From Rhodopirellula sp. P2 (lineage in GTDB: Bacteria; Planctomycetota; Planctomycetia; Pirellulales; Pirellulaceae), in assembly GCF_028768465.1 (NCBI RefSeq), contig NZ_CP118225.1, positions 2,275,001-2,339,000 of the forward strand: a stretch of DNA of 64,000 nt, given 5' to 3'. The position numbers and the translations under genes were made by a program. A model generated the notes under the pieces. That model saw only the letters and a list, made by a program, of their open reading frames with translations. It was not told the DNA's origin and searched no databases. This document shows, in pieces, positions 23,767-32,081 of this stretch (its first letter is position 1; the number at the start of each line of letters is the position of its first letter).

Positions 23767-25002
23767 TTAGCGAGGCACTAAGAAACAGCTGAAGTGGTCA
23801 CGCGAAAGTTGTGCCAGCATGGATTGGGCTTGCTCGGCATAGGTCGGGTCCAGTTGGGCGGCGAGTTGAGCGTTCTCGGCCGCCAATGATGTTTTTTGAT
23901 GTTCTTTGTAGCAAGTCGCCAAAAGGAAATGATGCTCGGCGGTGGGGGCCAGTTGGACCAGCGCTTGATAGGCCTCTTCTTCCAAACGCCGATTGCCCAA
24001 TTGACGGGCTGCGAAAGCGATCCCTTTGTAGGCACTGCTCATCGCCTTGAGTTTGCCGGGGCTGTCCGCTTGCCGTTGCCAGTGTTGAAGCGAACGTTCA
24101 TAGCCTCGCAAGCTTTCGGAAGGTTGATCCAAGCGTTGTTGGCACAGCCCATAGAAGTCGAGGCTGATCGCTTGGAAATGACGACCGGACATCATCGGTC
24201 GAATCCAGCCGAGGGCCTCGTGGTTTCGATCGAGCTGAACCAAGGTGGTGATTCGTCTCCCGATCATGGCGATGGTCAGGTTTCGAGGCAGCGGCTGTTG
24301 GACGACTGATTCCAGTCGAGCCTTCTGTTCGTGGAGATTGCCTTCCAAGGTGGCCAGGTCCGAATCGGCGGTCGTCACGCTGGGATCGAATCGGCGCAAC
24401 TGCCAGCACTGTTTCCAAGCCAAGGCAACGCGATTGCTGCTGAGTGATTCTTGCAGCTTTTTTTCCAGGGATTCCGCTGCTGAGTGCGTGTAGGTGGCGG
24501 GAATCGCGATCGTTGCCGTTCCGAACAAGAGCCATGCCCAAGACGGCCAAACCTGCGGGCCGCCCTGCCCTGCCCTGATGGCATTGGGTTCGAGTTGGGG
24601 AATGGGTTGGGGGGACGCGATCGCGACGCACAGGTTGGCCACGGCGAATGCGGTCAGACAAGACAGCAGTGCTCGAGCGATTGTGATCGACAGCAGGCTT
24701 TCAGGGAGTGAAATTCCCTGACTCATGACCGCCAGGCAAAGGCAACCCGCCAACAAACAAGCACCCAGCAGGAACGCGGATGAACGCGAATTCTTGTCAG
24801 CCCGCCTCGCTCCAGCGAAGCCAATCGGCAATGCGGCAAACATGGAAATGGCGTAGACATCATCTCGACCAAACCACTCCAGATGTCCGTTGTGATCCAG
24901 CAACAGTTGACGAACGGCCAGCAAGACGGCAATCACCGTGGGCGGCCAAAACAACCAGCTTGCCCGAAGGTTTTGCCTTGATGTGTGGTTCGGTGACGTC
25001 AT
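23767..25002 (-). CDS. membrane protein with TPR-like C-terminal half
   Basis: 411 residues from the ATG at 25002, which overlaps the stop of the upstream gene (ATGA). About five hydrophobic helices occupy residues 12-185 (WLFWPPTVIAVLLAVRQLLL, SAFLLGACLLAGCLCLAVMS, ALLSCLTAFAVANLCVAIA, WLLFGTATIAIPATYTHSA). The remaining about 220 residues are helical repeats of TPR type (ALGWIRPMM ... FYGLCQQRLDQPSESLRGYE, AFAARQLGNRRLEEEAYQAL, LATCYKEHQKTSLAAENAQL), presumably facing the periplasm or cytoplasm as a scaffold. It is the last gene of a four-gene operon with a seven-heme cytochrome. Function unknown. Confidence 0.85.
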   Translation of the reverse strand: MTSPNHTSRQNLRASWLFWPPTVIAVLLAVRQLLLDHNGHLEWFGRDDVYAISMFAALPIGFAGARRADKNSRSSAFLLGACLLAGCLCLAVMSQGISLPESLLSITIARALLSCLTAFAVANLCVAIASPQPIPQLEPNAIRAGQGGPQVWPSWAWLLFGTATIAIPATYTHSAAESLEKKLQESLSSNRVALAWKQCWQLRRFDPSVTTADSDLATLEGNLHEQKARLESVVQQPLPRNLTIAMIGRRITTLVQLDRNHEALGWIRPMMSGRHFQAISLDFYGLCQQRLDQPSESLRGYERSLQHWQRQADSPGKLKAMSSAYKGIAFAARQLGNRRLEEEAYQALVQLAPTAEHHFLLATCYKEHQKTSLAAENAQLAAQLDPTYAEQAQSMLAQLSRDHFSCFLVPR

Positions 25003-26162
25003 GCTGCCCCCGCTGAGGAGGAGGATGCGCGGCGTTTGGGTGACTTCCACAGCAGACCGTCAAAGCAGTAATGCCAAAACGCAACGACCAAGTTGATCGT
25101 CACCCAGGCTTCAAAGAAACCACGTGAAAGCAGGTAGTTTCCGAGGCCGATGACAAGAACAAACACGACCAGGAACAGCATCCAAATCTTGGAGAGGCGG
25201 GCCAGTGGATTGGGGTCTGTTTTGGCCCCCGACTTTTTCATCGACCAAGTCACAATGGACATGTATTCCATCGAATGAAAGATGGCGGACGCCAACGCAA
25301 GTTGGATGACCAGTTGACTGTTTTGATAGTGCGCGGCCAACAGCAAGGCTGCGAAGAGGGACATCACGCTCAGCAGGTACAGCATGCTGGCCAAGGCTTG
25401 GTTGCCAAGCCTCACGAAACGATGGATGGCGGAAACGACAAATGTGGCAGGGATCAGCAGCATCCACCAATCCAGAGACTCGACTGCAGAGAACGAAGGG
25501 AACGGTCCTTCGGGCCAACCCAGTCCAGCCACGCGGGCGATCGTGTACAGCAAGAATCCACGGAAGAAGAGTTTCTGAAGCAGTGCTCCTTTGCTTTGAA
25601 TGAATCGCGAAAGCGGATTCGAATGGTGGGAGCCGGCACCGTCGTTTACGGTTCGGTCAAACGGATCGGATGCCTTGGCTTTGGGGGGGCATGACGATTG
25701 GCGTTGATAGATTCGAAAGATGCCGTGATGCTGGGACGAGAAGTGCCAGGCGTTCCAGACATAATCGATCATTCCGAGGCATAGCAGCGACCCGGTGCTC
25801 ATCTGCAACCCGACGCAGACGGTCAAAATCGCGAGTGCCAAAGCTGCGAAGAGCCACCGTCGGTCCTGCGACTTGTGGTGATCGACGGACACCAAAACGA
25901 TCGTGATCCACCGGTGTGGGGCAGTGATGAAATAGATTTGCCAGAACAGCAGGCCTTCATGGGTGGTCGTGCCACCGAAGACATCGACGACGACCAAGAG
26001 CGGCCAAAACAAGTTCGCAATGAAGACGAGGTCGATGAGTGGTGAGAAGAGGAAGCCACTTCGGGGATCGGCAGGGAGGCTTGTGTGCGACGTTTCTTTC
26101 GAACGAGAAGCCGGCGGATCCACCGGCGGACGGGTGCGGCGTGATGGGGCGATGACGCTCAT
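24999..26162 (-). CDS. polytopic membrane protein with conserved histidines
   Basis: 387 residues, ATG at 26162 overlapping the stop of the cytochrome gene (ATGA). After a polar 35-residue N-terminus there are about nine to ten hydrophobic helices. Histidines cluster in or near the membrane: TAPHRWITIVLVSVDHHKSQ, DYVWNAWHFSSQHHGIFRIY, SAIFHSMEYMSIVTW and VVAFWHYCFDGLLWK. Such intramembrane His/Trp/Asp sites suggest heme or di-metal binding, but I cannot assign a family. Placed between a seven-heme cytochrome and a TPR membrane protein, it is a plausible membrane electron-transfer or oxygenase component. Confidence 0.85.
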   Translation of the reverse strand: MSVIAPSRRTRPPVDPPASRSKETSHTSLPADPRSGFLFSPLIDLVFIANLFWPLLVVVDVFGGTTTHEGLLFWQIYFITAPHRWITIVLVSVDHHKSQDRRWLFAALALAILTVCVGLQMSTGSLLCLGMIDYVWNAWHFSSQHHGIFRIYQRQSSCPPKAKASDPFDRTVNDGAGSHHSNPLSRFIQSKGALLQKLFFRGFLLYTIARVAGLGWPEGPFPSFSAVESLDWWMLLIPATFVVSAIHRFVRLGNQALASMLYLLSVMSLFAALLLAAHYQNSQLVIQLALASAIFHSMEYMSIVTWSMKKSGAKTDPNPLARLSKIWMLFLVVFVLVIGLGNYLLSRGFFEAWVTINLVVAFWHYCFDGLLWKSPKRRASSSSAGAA

Positions 26163-27445
26163 GGAGATGCCTCCCGCGTGGTCTCGGCAGCATGCGAGGC
26201 GGTGTCACCAACGATTCGAATCCAGTGATCGCGAAAAGCGATCCCTGGGGTCCAAGGTGTGAGTGGCATGTGGCATTCGATGCAGTCACCCGATGGTGCT
26301 TCAGGGCAAATCGTGGAAGCCTGTGGTTGATGACAGGTTTGGCATTGCTGGATGTATTGTTGGCGATCGTGCGAGGTGGTGTCGTGCGGGTCGTGGCAAG
26401 TCGAGCAGGTGAGTTCACCGGCGGATTGCAGGTAGCATTCGCTTTTCTTCAGACCGTAGGGCTGGAAACGAGCACGTTCTGCTGCCGTTGAATCCGCTGA
26501 GACGGAGCGTTCATCGCGATGGCAAGCGCTGCAGGTTTCCATGTGGGCACTGGCATCGTGTTGGTCGATCATTGGTTTGCTTTGCTCAGGCAAGCCGCGG
26601 CCTGCGAGGATCACATGTTGCTTCCGCGGCCCATGACAGCGCTCGCAACCTACATTGGCGATCATGGTTTGGGATGTCAGCGGCAGCGGTGGAGGCGGGA
26701 CGACGGTGGAGTGGCATCCGATGCAAGACCGCACGTCCATGGCATCCATGGGACGCCCCAAGCACTCAGCTGTGCCATCCCGAAAGGTGTCGTATTGATC
26801 GTGATCGGGAGTCACATTCAGTTGGTCGTCGCCATGGAAGGACGACCAACGCATCTCGATGCCGCGAGAACCATCGTGCTGGATGGCGATGGGGGTCTGG
26901 GCGTGGGTACCGGATCCCAGCAGCCAGTTGACTGCGACCGACACGGTGGATCCGGTTGCCGACGGATCGGAAAAGGGTTTCGTAACCGCCCTGCCCTGCC
27001 CTGTTGAGGTGCTGACCAGAAACTGATTCGCGTTCTTGGTGAAGCGGAACGTTTGGTTGCGAAGCGGATCGTTGTAGTGGCCTTGTTGTAGAAGTTGCTG
27101 AGCCAACTCGGACTCCACCATCGGGGTGGCGGTTCGCGAATGACCGGAGCGAAGATGGGCTTCGTACTCGGCCGGATGGCAGGCTTGGCAAGCTTGATCC
27201 CCTGCGAACTGCGAGGAAACAAATTGGCTCCACTGGGTGACGGCCTTTGAGATCGATGCGGCGGAGTCCTGGGGGGCCAGCGTTCGACGGGCGGCCGAGG
27301 ACGGCGCAGGTGCGATCGACATCAGGTCACGTGCGACACTGGCCGCACAGACTCCGGTCACCAAAAGCACTAAGAGCCCCAGAAACTGGAGGCTCTTGGC
27401 AGAAAGAATCTTGGAGAACAAGGGATGTCTTTGAAGAGGGATCAA
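26159..27445 (-). CDS. membrane-anchored multiheme cytochrome c (seven CxxCH)
   Basis: 428 residues. The only workable start is a TTG at 27445 that overlaps the stop of the upstream lipoprotein gene (TTGA). A membrane anchor or signal lies at about 19-37 (LQFLGLLVLLVTGVCAASVA). Heme-attachment sites are CQACH 86-90, CIGCH 241-245, CERCH 267-271, CSACH 305-309, CSTCH 347-351, CQTCH 368-372 and CIECH 388-392; extra histidines are available as distal ligands. The spacing recalls the octaheme/cytochrome c554-like and doubled CxxCH families, with a long heme-free stretch between sites 1 and 2. A periplasmic electron carrier is most likely. It is second in a four-gene coupled operon. Confidence 0.9.
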   Translation of the reverse strand: MIPLQRHPLFSKILSAKSLQFLGLLVLLVTGVCAASVARDLMSIAPAPSSAARRTLAPQDSAASISKAVTQWSQFVSSQFAGDQACQACHPAEYEAHLRSGHSRTATPMVESELAQQLLQQGHYNDPLRNQTFRFTKNANQFLVSTSTGQGRAVTKPFSDPSATGSTVSVAVNWLLGSGTHAQTPIAIQHDGSRGIEMRWSSFHGDDQLNVTPDHDQYDTFRDGTAECLGRPMDAMDVRSCIGCHSTVVPPPPLPLTSQTMIANVGCERCHGPRKQHVILAGRGLPEQSKPMIDQHDASAHMETCSACHRDERSVSADSTAAERARFQPYGLKKSECYLQSAGELTCSTCHDPHDTTSHDRQQYIQQCQTCHQPQASTICPEAPSGDCIECHMPLTPWTPGIAFRDHWIRIVGDTASHAAETTREASP

Positions 27446-27849
27446 CCCAAAGGAGCTTCTTTGATTTTCCAGTCTTCACCGACGCGTTGCAGCACCCAGT
27501 TTTGAGTGGTGGTGCCAGCTTCCGAAGCCTTTTTCGAGCGATCGCCGCCGGAGGTTGCAAAGACGCCGCCAAAGATTTTGACGGGGACGGTCATTTGGTC
27601 GCCGTCCACTTCACCGTCGCCAGCGATTTCGTAACCACGTTGAGCGTAGTCTTCTTGGTTTTCAGGAACCGCTCCATCGACGAAGACGGTGGCAAACATC
27701 TTGGGGTCGCCAGCGGCATCGCCCAGGCCTTCCACACAAGCGTAAGCGTCTTGTTCGAGGGTGATTTCAGGAGGTGCTGACGAGCCACAACCGATGACGG
27801 TGAGCAACGCGAAAACGGGGATCAGTTGAATGGAGGTTTGAAAGTTCAT
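27442..27849 (-). CDS. small lipoprotein, first gene of cytochrome operon
   Basis: 135 residues from the ATG at 27849 (a TTG at 27861 would add four). The leader MNFQTSIQLIPVFALLTVIG ends in a lipobox (V-I-G-C). The mature part has an N-terminal helix with the AYACVEGLGDAAGDPKMFAT segment and ends TTTQNWVLQRVGEDWKIKEA, typical of a DUF4878/SnoaL-like cystatin fold used by periplasmic lipoproteins. The TTGA overlap with the next gene couples it to the cytochrome. Function unknown. Confidence 0.82.
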   Translation of the reverse strand: MNFQTSIQLIPVFALLTVIGCGSSAPPEITLEQDAYACVEGLGDAAGDPKMFATVFVDGAVPENQEDYAQRGYEIAGDGEVDGDQMTVPVKIFGGVFATSGGDRSKKASEAGTTTQNWVLQRVGEDWKIKEAPLG

Positions 27850-28154
27850 CTGGTTTAACAAGGAGGTGAAAGAGTATTCAAGGGATTGGGAACTCAGCTC
27901 TCCCCTCGCTTCACTCGCCCCTCCCAGCGGGAGAGGCGAGGTCGCACAGCTTTCTTGAAAGCTGTGCGAGATTCCTTCGAGGGAGTGCGACTAAGCAGGT
28001 CGGCAGGGGGCGTTCGGCATTTGAAATATCGTGGCAAGCGTGGTTGTTTCCACGTACAACCGGGGCTAACGCCCAAACGGCTCACATGGTTATGCCCGAT
28101 CATTCTTGCCGACCCGCTTACGCCAGGAGGGCTGGTTTGATGGCGTCAGCTCGA
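27850..28154. other. intergenic region with hairpin
   Basis: It holds the promoter of the cytochrome operon and a 13-base inverted repeat, TCGCACAGCTTTC-tt-GAAAGCTGTGCGA, at 27942-27969, immediately after a CCCTCGCTTCACTCGCCCCT stretch that is related in reverse to the 233-base repeat unit near 12 kb. The rest (28020-28140) shows nothing I recognise. Confidence 0.6.
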
Positions 28155-29249
28155 TCAGGGCATTTCGAAGACTTCGCTGTTCTTCGCGGTTGCCAAAGGA
28201 TGCCAAACGTTTTCTTTGTCGACCGAGTCAGTGATGAATCGAACGGAGCTGTCTGCCATCAGGATATTGACGCCACCGGTGTGGTGACTGCGAGCAGCGG
28301 CCCAGATCTCGGCGGTGTCGCGTTGTTCCAGGCAAGCCAAGTAGGGATTCAGTTTGTCTTCCGGGATGGTTTCATCGCAGGCAGCCAACACGTCTTTTTC
28401 GCGACTGTTGGGGCTGGTGAAAGCGGAGAAGATTGTGGCTCCCATGGCAGGCGACATCCAAGTGCCACGGATGTCCGTTTTGGATTCCGCGTTGAGGATT
28501 TCGCTCATCGCCATCGTGTTGCTCATGCCGTCCAGGAAGTCTTCGCTGCCCATTCCGTTTCGGTTTTGAAAGCGGTCACCGGCGATGCCATCTTTGATGA
28601 TCACATCTTGGTGAACGTAGTAGGTGCCGAAGGCGCCGGAGGTTTGATCGTTTTCCCAAGACAGCATGTCGCCCGAACCCCAGTTGGCCGCGTAGTTGGA
28701 ACCCTTTGCCAAGGCTTCCAAGCCGTAGCTTCCGTCGGAGAATTGAGCGGTCACGCCGGGGGCCGATGGGCAGGCAACAAATGAACCGAGTTGTTCACGA
28801 CCGATGTGTTCGAATTCCGCGAAGTATTCGCAGTGATCGCAGGGGTTCATGGTGTGGCCCGTGACGGAATCTTCGCAGCGGGTGATCAATTCCCAAACAC
28901 CGGGTTGTTCCATGTAAGGGAACAGCATTGGCAACCAGTGCCATCCCAGTTCGTTCTGGCCGTGTTGCCAGCCACCGGTTTTGAAGCGGTTGCCGCTTTC
29001 GTCGTAATTGACGTTGCCGGGAGGAAACGATCCGAAGGCAGCCATGTGGTTGTGCAGCGCGATGCCGAATTGCTTGAAGTTGTTCTGGCACTGCATCCGG
29101 CGGGCGGCTTCACGAGCGGCTTGAACGGCAGGCAGAAGCAGCCCAACCAAGACGCCGATGATCGCGATGACAACCAAAAGTTCGACCAAGGTGAAACCAG
29201 ATCGCGTGGAGGTCCGCCGGTCGCACGTGCGTGGATGTTGGAATTTCAT
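28155..29249 (-). CDS. DUF1559 prepilin-like protein
   Basis: 364 residues. After a short basic leader comes the type IV prepilin/pseudopilin N-terminus [20 protein letters not shown] with the G-F-T-L-V-E processing site, then [20 protein letters not shown], the hallmark of the DUF1559 (SBP_bac_10) family, which is greatly expanded in Planctomycetes. The C-terminus has the H-x9-D motif [16 protein letters not shown], where Ser replaces the usual Gly after Asp. Probably membrane-anchored and surface-exposed; the role is unknown. The ATG at 29249 is well placed. Confidence 0.92.
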
Positions 29250-31136: not shown

Positions 31137-31400
31137 GTTGTTTGCCCGATTGGAAAAATGGCCCTAAATCACAACAACATCTAGGTGACGATTCGGGGAC
31201 CTCCAAACTCTTTTTCCCGGTCAGGCAAACGCGGGAGCGGGTGGCGCGGTTTGGGCCGTCGCAATCGCTACAAACCGAGAGAGCCGTTCTGAGACCGTTT
31301 GCGGGTGACCGCAGAGAGGTGCTGCGGAGCCTGTGTCCGACTCGTTACAATGCGGGATTGGCCAATTCAGTGAAGTTCGAATTTCCCACAGGTGATCGCG

Positions 31401-32081
31401 ATGAACACGAAGAGGATGTCACGCCGTTGGTTCGCGAGTCGATCTGCCATGGCGATGGGGGGTGCCGCGATGTGGACGACGCCCGGTTTGTTCGCGGAAG
31501 AGTTGCTGAAACCAACGCCGCCATTGACCGAGGGTCCGTTTTACCCCGACCGATTGCCGTTGGATCAGGACAACGATTTGATCGTGATTGGTGATCACAC
31601 AACCCCGGCGGTTGGTGAGGTGACCCATTTGACAGGCCGCGTGCTGACTGCGGCGGGGACGCCGGTTCGCAATGCGACGATTGAAATTTGGCAATGCGAT
31701 GCCAACGCGGTTTATCTGCACACGCGTGACAGCAACGGCAAGAAAGACCAGCAGGACAAGAACTTTCAGGGGTTTGGGCGGTTCGAAACGGCCAGCGACG
31801 GCGGGTATCGTTTTCGCACGATCAAGCCAGTGCCCTACCCCGGTCGCCCCGCCCCCCACATTCACATCAAGGTCAAGCAAGGCGACAAGGACGTGCTGAC
31901 AACACAGTTGTTGATTCGTGGTCATGAAGGCAACCAACGGGATGGTGTTTTTCGCCGGGTGACCGATTCAGCGACACGCGAATTGTTGGTGGCTGATTTC
32001 AAGCCAATGCAAGAGTCCAAGATCGGTGAATTGGCTTGTCAGTTCGATGTGATCTTAGGGCAGACCCCCGCCGACGGTTGA
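31401..32081 (+). CDS. Tat-exported intradiol ring-cleavage dioxygenase-like protein
   Basis: 226 residues from the ATG at 31401 (a GTG at 31392 would add three residues; GGTG lies upstream). Tat-like leader MNTKRMSRRWFASRSAMAMG. The core is the protocatechuate 3,4-dioxygenase fold: TEGPFYPDRLP, LTGRVLTAAGTPVRNATIEI, WQCDANAVYLH, FETASDGGYRFRTIKPVPYP and the metal ligand segment PAPHIHIKV. The family uses Fe(III) bound by two Tyr and two His to open catechol rings; here an exported member perhaps acts on aromatic or redox compounds outside the cytoplasm. Substrate unknown. Confidence 0.9.
   Translation: MNTKRMSRRWFASRSAMAMGGAAMWTTPGLFAEELLKPTPPLTEGPFYPDRLPLDQDNDLIVIGDHTTPAVGEVTHLTGRVLTAAGTPVRNATIEIWQCDANAVYLHTRDSNGKKDQQDKNFQGFGRFETASDGGYRFRTIKPVPYPGRPAPHIHIKVKQGDKDVLTTQLLIRGHEGNQRDGVFRRVTDSATRELLVADFKPMQESKIGELACQFDVILGQTPADG

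Follow-up and report, generated by a model that had tools for sequence, protein, structure and literature searches.

A conserved planctomycete gene set with a four-histidine membrane protein, possibly a remote relative of Brp/Blh, a TPR protein and, in part, a heptaheme cytochrome

The Brp/Blh β-carotene dioxygenases (PF15461), for which we know of no described wider kin, are characterized by exactly four highly conserved intramembrane histidines. According to a review, replacement of His21, His78, His188 or His192 of Blh by alanine leaves less than 5% of the activity (PMC9227343). Here we describe a gene set from the marine planctomycete Rhodopirellula sp. P2 whose central product, a polytopic membrane protein (POLY), we tentatively read as a remote Brp/Blh-like intramembrane metal protein, in a conserved membrane module with a TPR protein and, in part, a heptaheme cytochrome; this reading falls a little short of probable. 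The genes lie in a 64,000-nucleotide window (C1:2275001-2339000, the whole stretch analysed) of a 7.29 Mb single-contig genome. On the minus strand they follow the order DUF1559, LIPO, CYT, POLY, TPR: a DUF1559 pseudopilin-like protein, a lipoprotein (LIPO), the heptaheme cytochrome c (CYT), POLY and the TPR protein (Table 1).

A sequence-only reading of this DNA had reported the four minus-strand genes from LIPO to TPR as overlapping, and the overlaps are there in the sequence: LIPO/CYT are joined by TTGA at 27445/27442, CYT/POLY by ATGA at 26162/26159 and POLY/TPR by ATGA at 25002/24999. Its list of four genes stands, and lacked the conserved DUF1559 gene ahead of them. Its further claim, that the four are produced jointly, finds good support in their conservation, the genes remaining together in relatives. 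Scanning public genomes for POLY by sequence pattern yielded 29 loci, some of them ending at contig edges, with a planctomycete name in every title; the closest named relative among those fetched is Rhodopirellula europaea 6C, with a POLY 82% identical. The order lipoprotein-CYT-POLY-TPR is preserved in nine loci from named records. Loci L032, L034-L039 and L041 show the full order DUF1559-LIPO-CYT-POLY-TPR, and L033, on a short contig, shows LIPO-CYT-POLY-TPR (CYT is in two frames in L033, as is POLY in L038). A Gimesia locus (L043) has the order POLY-TPR-DUF1559-LIPO-CYT. CYT is encoded in 10 of the 29 loci and was not found in the remaining 19, 13 of which have a TPR-cluster gene; tallied across the whole locus, TPR-cluster genes occur in 23 of the 29 and DUF1559-cluster genes in 21. 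Five loci (L040:4175, L042:7439, L044:5635, L106:5656 and L109:7078) have another short protein family (159-208 aa) replacing LIPO between DUF1559 and POLY, and no CYT neighbour; L044 has a further gene between the short protein and POLY, and the L106 genome encodes CYT at a separate locus (L105).

Among 90 genomes of the bacterial family Pirellulaceae, POLY is found at E <=1e-40 in 11 and CYT in 15. Close POLY (E <=3e-62) and close CYT (E <=6e-118) occur in the same nine genomes, from five genera, and adjoin in all nine (gap < ~250 bp, or overlap). The two genomes with a weaker POLY (G274, G507) have no CYT match, and the six extra genomes with CYT have distant paralogues only (E 6e-41 to 1e-47). 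Across the phylum we sampled 392 genomes, scoring 4 or 5 candidates per genome, so that paralogues are undercounted. A close CYT (E <=1e-160) is present in eight, three of which (G000, G291, G307) gave rows to the CYT profile and hence match by construction; all eight have a close POLY, within 4 kb of CYT in seven and on a different contig in the eighth (G257). In the samples searched a close CYT never occurs without a close POLY, and POLY often occurs without CYT. Rhodopirellula and its relatives thus conserve the gene set DUF1559-LIPO-CYT-POLY-TPR; among the papers listed by our literature searches, none on this real and conserved module was found.

It is conceivable that envelope genes, of which planctomycetes carry dozens of the DUF1559 and multihaem kinds, merely came to lie side by side here and have no joint function. 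R. baltica is reported to have 74 DUF1559 copies (PMC2754498), and in Gimesia-type loci (L043, L107) LIPO and DUF1559 come after POLY-TPR, not before it. Against this, CYT and POLY adjoin in 9/9 cases across five genera, start and stop codons overlap, and fusions of POLY to TPR exist. Chance is largely refuted for CYT-POLY-TPR and possible for DUF1559-LIPO, and we find it scarcely credible for the set as a whole.

POLY is characterized by four near-invariant histidines, each of which is supported as lying on a separate hydrophobic segment. Across 50 aligned sequences, that of the window included, D44, H83, H140, Q144, G147, Y152, H296, Y300, H364, D368, G369 and W372 are invariant. A wider set of 89 superfamily members has exactly four columns with more than 90% His (89, 89, 89 and 88 of 89), with further fixed columns of Asp and Gln (89/89 each) and another Asp (88/89). 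The four intramembrane histidine motifs proposed in the earlier reading are thus upheld: H83, H140, H296 and H364 are kept in 50/50 sequences and in 88-89 of the 89. Going by the helix list of an AlphaFold2 model (mean pLDDT 82.4) and by charges, we read the protein as having four hairpins that each carry one of these histidines on their second helix (TM2, 4, 8 and 10), all at similar depth. The POLY profile, to which 23 of the matching genomes supplied rows, matches 79/392 phylum genomes, about a fifth; the single POLY protein matches 23/392. A plasmid search recovered no POLY.

The window POLY matched no Pfam or NCBIfam model, so that no characterized family of these collections claims it. 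A scan of the 50 members, with 25 of 27 families listed, gave scattered matches, the widest family reaching 8/50 (best E 0.026) and AtpR 6/50 (best E 6.5e-4); PF15461 was not among these 25. Three PDB profile matches (olfactory receptor, Na/K-ATPase beta chains; E 0.018 to 1.3) were taken as chance, and no other PDB relative was found by sequence. The best VIA-align score of the model (Z 7.6) is within the range common for helical bundles, and the rhodopsin-like rows (Z about 7) were not counted as evidence. Nine POLYs (L085, L092-L096, L135, L141, L146) have a long N-terminal extension that resembles a fusion but was not counted as one: codon-position GC (GC1 > GC3) suggests for most of them that an unrelated frame has been read through, L135 being the least clear case, and no family matched on three (L093, L094, L096).

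The motifs suggested a candidate relative, Brp/Blh, which was then compared with POLY using 30 PF15461 proteins, 29 from the phylum genomes and one from a Methylobacterium plasmid, the latter annotated as Brp/Blh and encoded after a bacteriorhodopsin gene. The frame filter for this set required PH and HF-like motifs and dropped L155, which has HW where the others have HF; the counts of PH 30/30 and HF 30/30 are thereby partly selected. In an unfiltered recheck each of the four histidine columns is kept in 31/31, with a modal spacing of 57/126/66. Both families have exactly four highly conserved intramembrane histidines, spaced at 57/130/70 (modal) in POLY, and the step from His21 to His78 of Blh is the same 57 residues as that from His1 to His2 of POLY. 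Four random positions would fall within 4 residues of 57/126/66 with a chance of about 1e-4, a figure that we do not use as a probability because regular helix hairpins favour spacings of this kind. POLY further shares a Trp before His2 (53/89) and a Phe after it (63/89); of the PHGxxD at His1 only the Pro recurs (53/89), the Gly and Asp not being kept. The hydropathy peaks, counted from His1, run parallel: -30, +28, +95, +128, +162, +187, +230 and +251 in POLY; -31, -10, +29, +83, +92, +124, +165, +217 and +244 in PF15461. Some of the assumed helices have no peak of their own: TM2 and TM4 in POLY, and in PF15461 TM4 and the helix of His3.

At the profile level, the alignment of 89 POLY members was compared by hhalign with the 30 PF15461 proteins. 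The local score was 34.0 (P 7.4e-4, probability 26%); the global score was 31.5 (probability 68%), and there the four histidines are in register. Controls against POLY scored lower (local/global): CtaA 17.1/7.3, fatty acid desaturase 18.2/4.4 and NnrS 22.1/9.6. None of 80 reversed-rotated nulls attained the POLY-PF15461 score, local or global, and none of 120 block shuffles attained the global score.

Several observations weigh against the kinship. The window POLY had no PF15461 match at E 1, and its own spacing is 57/156/68, the second step being far from 126. The invariant Asp at His1+4 of PF15461 is Thr in 70/89 POLYs, and 83/89 have Tyr where the catalytic HxxxH has its second His; that second His (the motif being His188/His192 of Blh) is itself present in only 10/30 of the PF15461 set. 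A Brp/Blh homologue has been predicted to have seven helices, not ten (PMC4110020). The POLY model found no fold match, the best Foldseek E being 0.39 (PDB) and 0.26 (viral models). The local hhalign score was attained by 2/120 block shuffles, both with 20-column blocks (2/60 of the coarse ones), and the global score by 5/40 forward rotations of PF15461 and 4/60 mixed rotations. The PF15461 profile on POLY proteins (HMMER) reached a best E of 0.11, not significant; the POLY profile reached 0.05 on PF15461 proteins and did better, 0.012, on desaturase controls. Smaller alignments gave hhalign probabilities of 1.7% (A1 vs A5, E 0.03) and 0.3% (A1 vs A4), and the probability spans 0.3% to 69% depending on alignment and mode. 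The hhalign score rests mainly on the His1-His2 region, and the remainder depends on layout. Profile support for the kinship is hence modest and mixed. POLY also differs from Brp/Blh in its extra conserved Asp, Gln, Tyr and Asp and in its partnership with TPR and a cytochrome. A search of 13 genomes of the genus found no PF15461 gene, and viral contigs yielded no PF15461 relatives. POLY is not a PF15461 member, although in our judgement it more likely than not shares the Brp/Blh fold and site. The statement of the earlier reading that its histidine motifs match no family it could name calls for revision, since the four-histidine layout does have a likeness in Brp/Blh.

CYT has seven CxxCH sites: CQACH, CIGCH, CERCH, CSACH, CSTCH, CQTCH and CIECH. 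It resembles the cytochrome c554/c7-type proteins, passing the curated cut-offs of PF14522 (32.2 bits, cut-off 24.8) and PF13435 (27.6, cut-off 20.8), as well as that of PF14537 (27.8 bits), and its residues 234-313 weakly match the solved cytochrome c554 structure 1bvb (E 0.0012). It is set apart from these by its seven hemes, a membrane anchor, a CxxCH-free stretch at 91-240 and the tie to POLY. The anchor is a hydrophobic segment at 19-37 (hydropathy), the place of which is taken by a lipoprotein-like signal in the L043 CYT. Beyond the CxxCH sites, H97, H102, H277, H354 and H407 are conserved in 12/12 sequences of alignment A2 and H181 and H215 in 11/12. With seven candidate second ligands for seven hemes, the sequence suggests an all-bis-His electron carrier and not a catalytic cytochrome. 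The AlphaFold2 model of CYT (mean pLDDT 47) is too low for fold comparison. The genome also carries a distant second CYT-like gene (34% identity; C1:2204171-2205178), some 70 kb ahead of the window.

With such a partner POLY might instead be a b-type haem quinol dehydrogenase, holding two hemes in two intramembrane His pairs and relaying menaquinol electrons to a periplasmic CYT, which is how the membrane anchors of multihaem reductases work. The four invariant intramembrane histidines, the adjacency to a multihaem cytochrome in 9/9 family genomes and the candidate second ligand for every CYT heme, as expected of an electron carrier, are all consistent with this proposal. However, the window POLY has no Pfam cytochrome b match, global hhalign scores are 7.3 for CtaA and 9.6 for NnrS against 31.5 for BCD, and POLY-TPR is common without a cytochrome. 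Moreover, the histidines appear to lie one per hydrophobic segment at similar depth, not in pairs at two depths. This arrangement, together with the fixed Asp, Gln and Tyr, fits a single metal site better than two b-hemes, and we regard the quinol dehydrogenase as unlikely.

POLY and TPR form the wider core of the module and are sometimes one protein. The TPR protein of the window is below the cut-offs of the repeat models (TPR_12 16.8, TPR_2 15.5 bits; none at E 0.001), and its homologue L109 is above (TPR_2 40.1 bits, cut-off 27). Five C-terminal TPR fusions of POLY were counted: in L098 (13521-15611), L100, L101 and L102 the repeats C-terminal to POLY are above Pfam cut-offs, and in L023 the region after POLY matches TPR-type NCBIfam models below theirs; one A1 member, presumably L023, has a TPR_2 match at 5.7e-8. 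By hydropathy, a hydrophobic segment separates the POLY and TPR parts in 4/5 fusions, and most stand-alone TPR proteins have about five such segments ahead of the TPR domain. If the K/R-rich C-terminus of POLY lies inside, either arrangement would put the TPR domain on the periplasmic side, the expected location of CYT and LIPO; charge and hydropathy are the grounds for this placement.

A periplasmic TPR domain beside a cytochrome also recalls cytochrome c maturation, in which CcmF handles haem via histidines and the periplasmic TPR of CcmI presents the apocytochrome. POLY would then handle haem, TPR present the apocytochrome and CYT be a dedicated client. The fused TPR parts of L098 (76.4 bits) and L101 (62.8 bits) do exceed the PF23914 TPR_CcmH_CycH cut-off of 42; yet many generic TPR models outscore PF23914 in the same proteins, L102 (37.9) and L100 (19.8 bits) fall under its cut-off, and the TPR protein of the window does not match it. 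Neither does any cytochrome assembly family match the window POLY, and 9/17 genomes with a close POLY are without a close CYT. A maturation helper is accordingly highly improbable.

Among 12 scanned loci of POLY paralogues, three, two of them from one genus, have a flavin amine-oxidase gene (PF01593) directly before POLY (L104:4472-7230, L140:2894-6999, L150:2536-5441). The best NCBIfam likeness of these neighbours is PigB, far under cut-off, and a PRK03612 polyamine aminopropyltransferase (spermidine-synthase-like) gene precedes the amine-oxidase gene in two of the three loci (L104, L140). The POLY paralogue of the same genome as the window (C1:724256-725413; L091:4260-5411) is flanked by genes for a sulfatase and a GH63/MGH1-like glycoside hydrolase. 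In L133 (2238-4816) a divergent POLY has a STAS-domain gene on one side and on the other a nitronate monooxygenase/FabK-like gene, with which it overlaps. Other neighbours include FloA, cyclophilin, CAP/PKD, polyketide-cyclase-like and DUF2157 proteins, several others matching no family. In L098 (6543-10233) a DUF1501 gene and a PSCyt2-PSD1 gene stand between CYT and POLY, and this insertion may link the module to the planctomycete-specific cytochrome genes (PSCyt2/PSD1, DUF1501). The four genes of the window differ in having none of these, no such Pfam match being found on POLY, TPR or CYT.

The STAS-domain neighbour would suit a non-enzymatic POLY, a membrane carrier or sensor of a metal or lipid with the TPR domain, an interaction module, as signalling partner. 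Redox neighbours in two settings (CYT and the flavin amine oxidase), and a fixed set of four His with Asp, Gln and Tyr that resembles a metal site, speak against such a role, which we consider improbable. The recurrence of redox neighbours, namely CYT, the flavin amine oxidase and the DUF1501/PSCyt2-PSD1 genes of L098, instead leads us to favour POLY as a metal oxidoreductase of the membrane whose electron partners would be interchangeable.

We propose that POLY shares the fold and metal-site layout of the Brp/Blh dioxygenases and holds one metal ion in the middle of the membrane, most likely, because of the analogy with Blh, non-haem iron. With iron it would oxidise a membrane lipid, be it an isoprenoid, a quinone or another, the depth of the site pointing to a lipid-soluble substrate. 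The periplasmic TPR domain would dock partners, and CYT, where present, would be anchored, probably all-bis-His, and carry electrons to or from the POLY site; LIPO and the DUF1559 pseudopilin might be envelope accessories. Certain facts sit poorly with this proposal: a dioxygenase needs no outside electrons, so that the analogy with Blh leaves CYT unexplained; of the 17 phylum genomes with a close POLY (E <=1e-110) only eight have a close CYT and nine are missing it; and 9/12 paralogue loci have no flavin amine oxidase among the neighbours scanned. Of the two functions offered in the sequence-only reading, a membrane redox enzyme would be the leading one, while an electron-conduit complex is weakened by the frequency of POLY-TPR without CYT (CYT in 8/17).

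LIPO, with no Pfam match in the window copy, has a lipobox-like ...VIGC and, in 20 aligned sequences, invariant G24-C25, F60, W122, W131-K132 and A136-P137. The DUF1559 protein matches PF07596 along its full length (235 bits, cut-off 23.3) with an N-methylation prepilin signal (N_methyl 29 bits, cut-off 21.2), as in planctomycete DUF1559 pseudopilins generally, and TIGR04294 H-X9-DG (38.8 bits, cut-off 19); it differs from these in belonging to the subset found near POLY. Promoter and terminator scans gave matches no more than chance. Elsewhere in the window an open reading frame with an RRWF-type signal lies on the plus strand (31392-32081); it may encode an intradiol ring-cleavage dioxygenase.

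Table 1. Features of the gene set and their positions in the window
Feature	Positions	Strand	Details
DUF1559 (SBP_bac_10, PF07596) pseudopilin-like protein	28155-29249	-	364 aa; belongs to the conserved set, upstream of LIPO
Inverted repeat, perfect, 13 nt, 2-nt loop	27942-27969		In the gap between DUF1559 and LIPO
LIPO, lipoprotein	27442-27861	-	139 aa (start TTG 27861) or 135 aa (start ATG 27849)
CYT, heptaheme cytochrome c	26159-27445	-	428 aa; TTG start; seven CxxCH
POLY, polytopic four-His membrane protein	24999-26162	-	387 aa
POLY His motif 1, P82-H83	25914-25919	-	From sequence and alignment
POLY His motif 2, W139-H140-F141	25740-25748	-	From sequence and alignment
POLY His motif 3, F295-H296-S-M-E-Y300	25263-25280	-	From sequence and alignment
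POLY His motif 4, H364-Y-C-F-D368-G369	25056-25073	-	From sequence and alignment
TPR protein	23767-25002	-	411 aa from ATG 25002; ~5 N-terminal hydrophobic segments, then TPR-like domain

The gene set suggests a membrane metal enzyme of a new kind, connected with an electron carrier. In its boldest form, which we consider doubtful, POLY would stand for a new family, spread across the phylum, of intramembrane iron oxidoreductases with four histidines; remotely akin to Brp/Blh, these would be coupled according to lineage to a heptaheme cytochrome or a flavin amine oxidase via a periplasmic TPR dock; if true, this would be an oxygenase-type membrane metal site driven by a multihaem wire. A second large family with the four-histidine layout of Brp/Blh, present in 79/392 genomes and linked over part of its range with a seven-heme cytochrome, would, if the likeness is true, widen that fold, and the planctomycetes would gain a testable membrane redox pathway.

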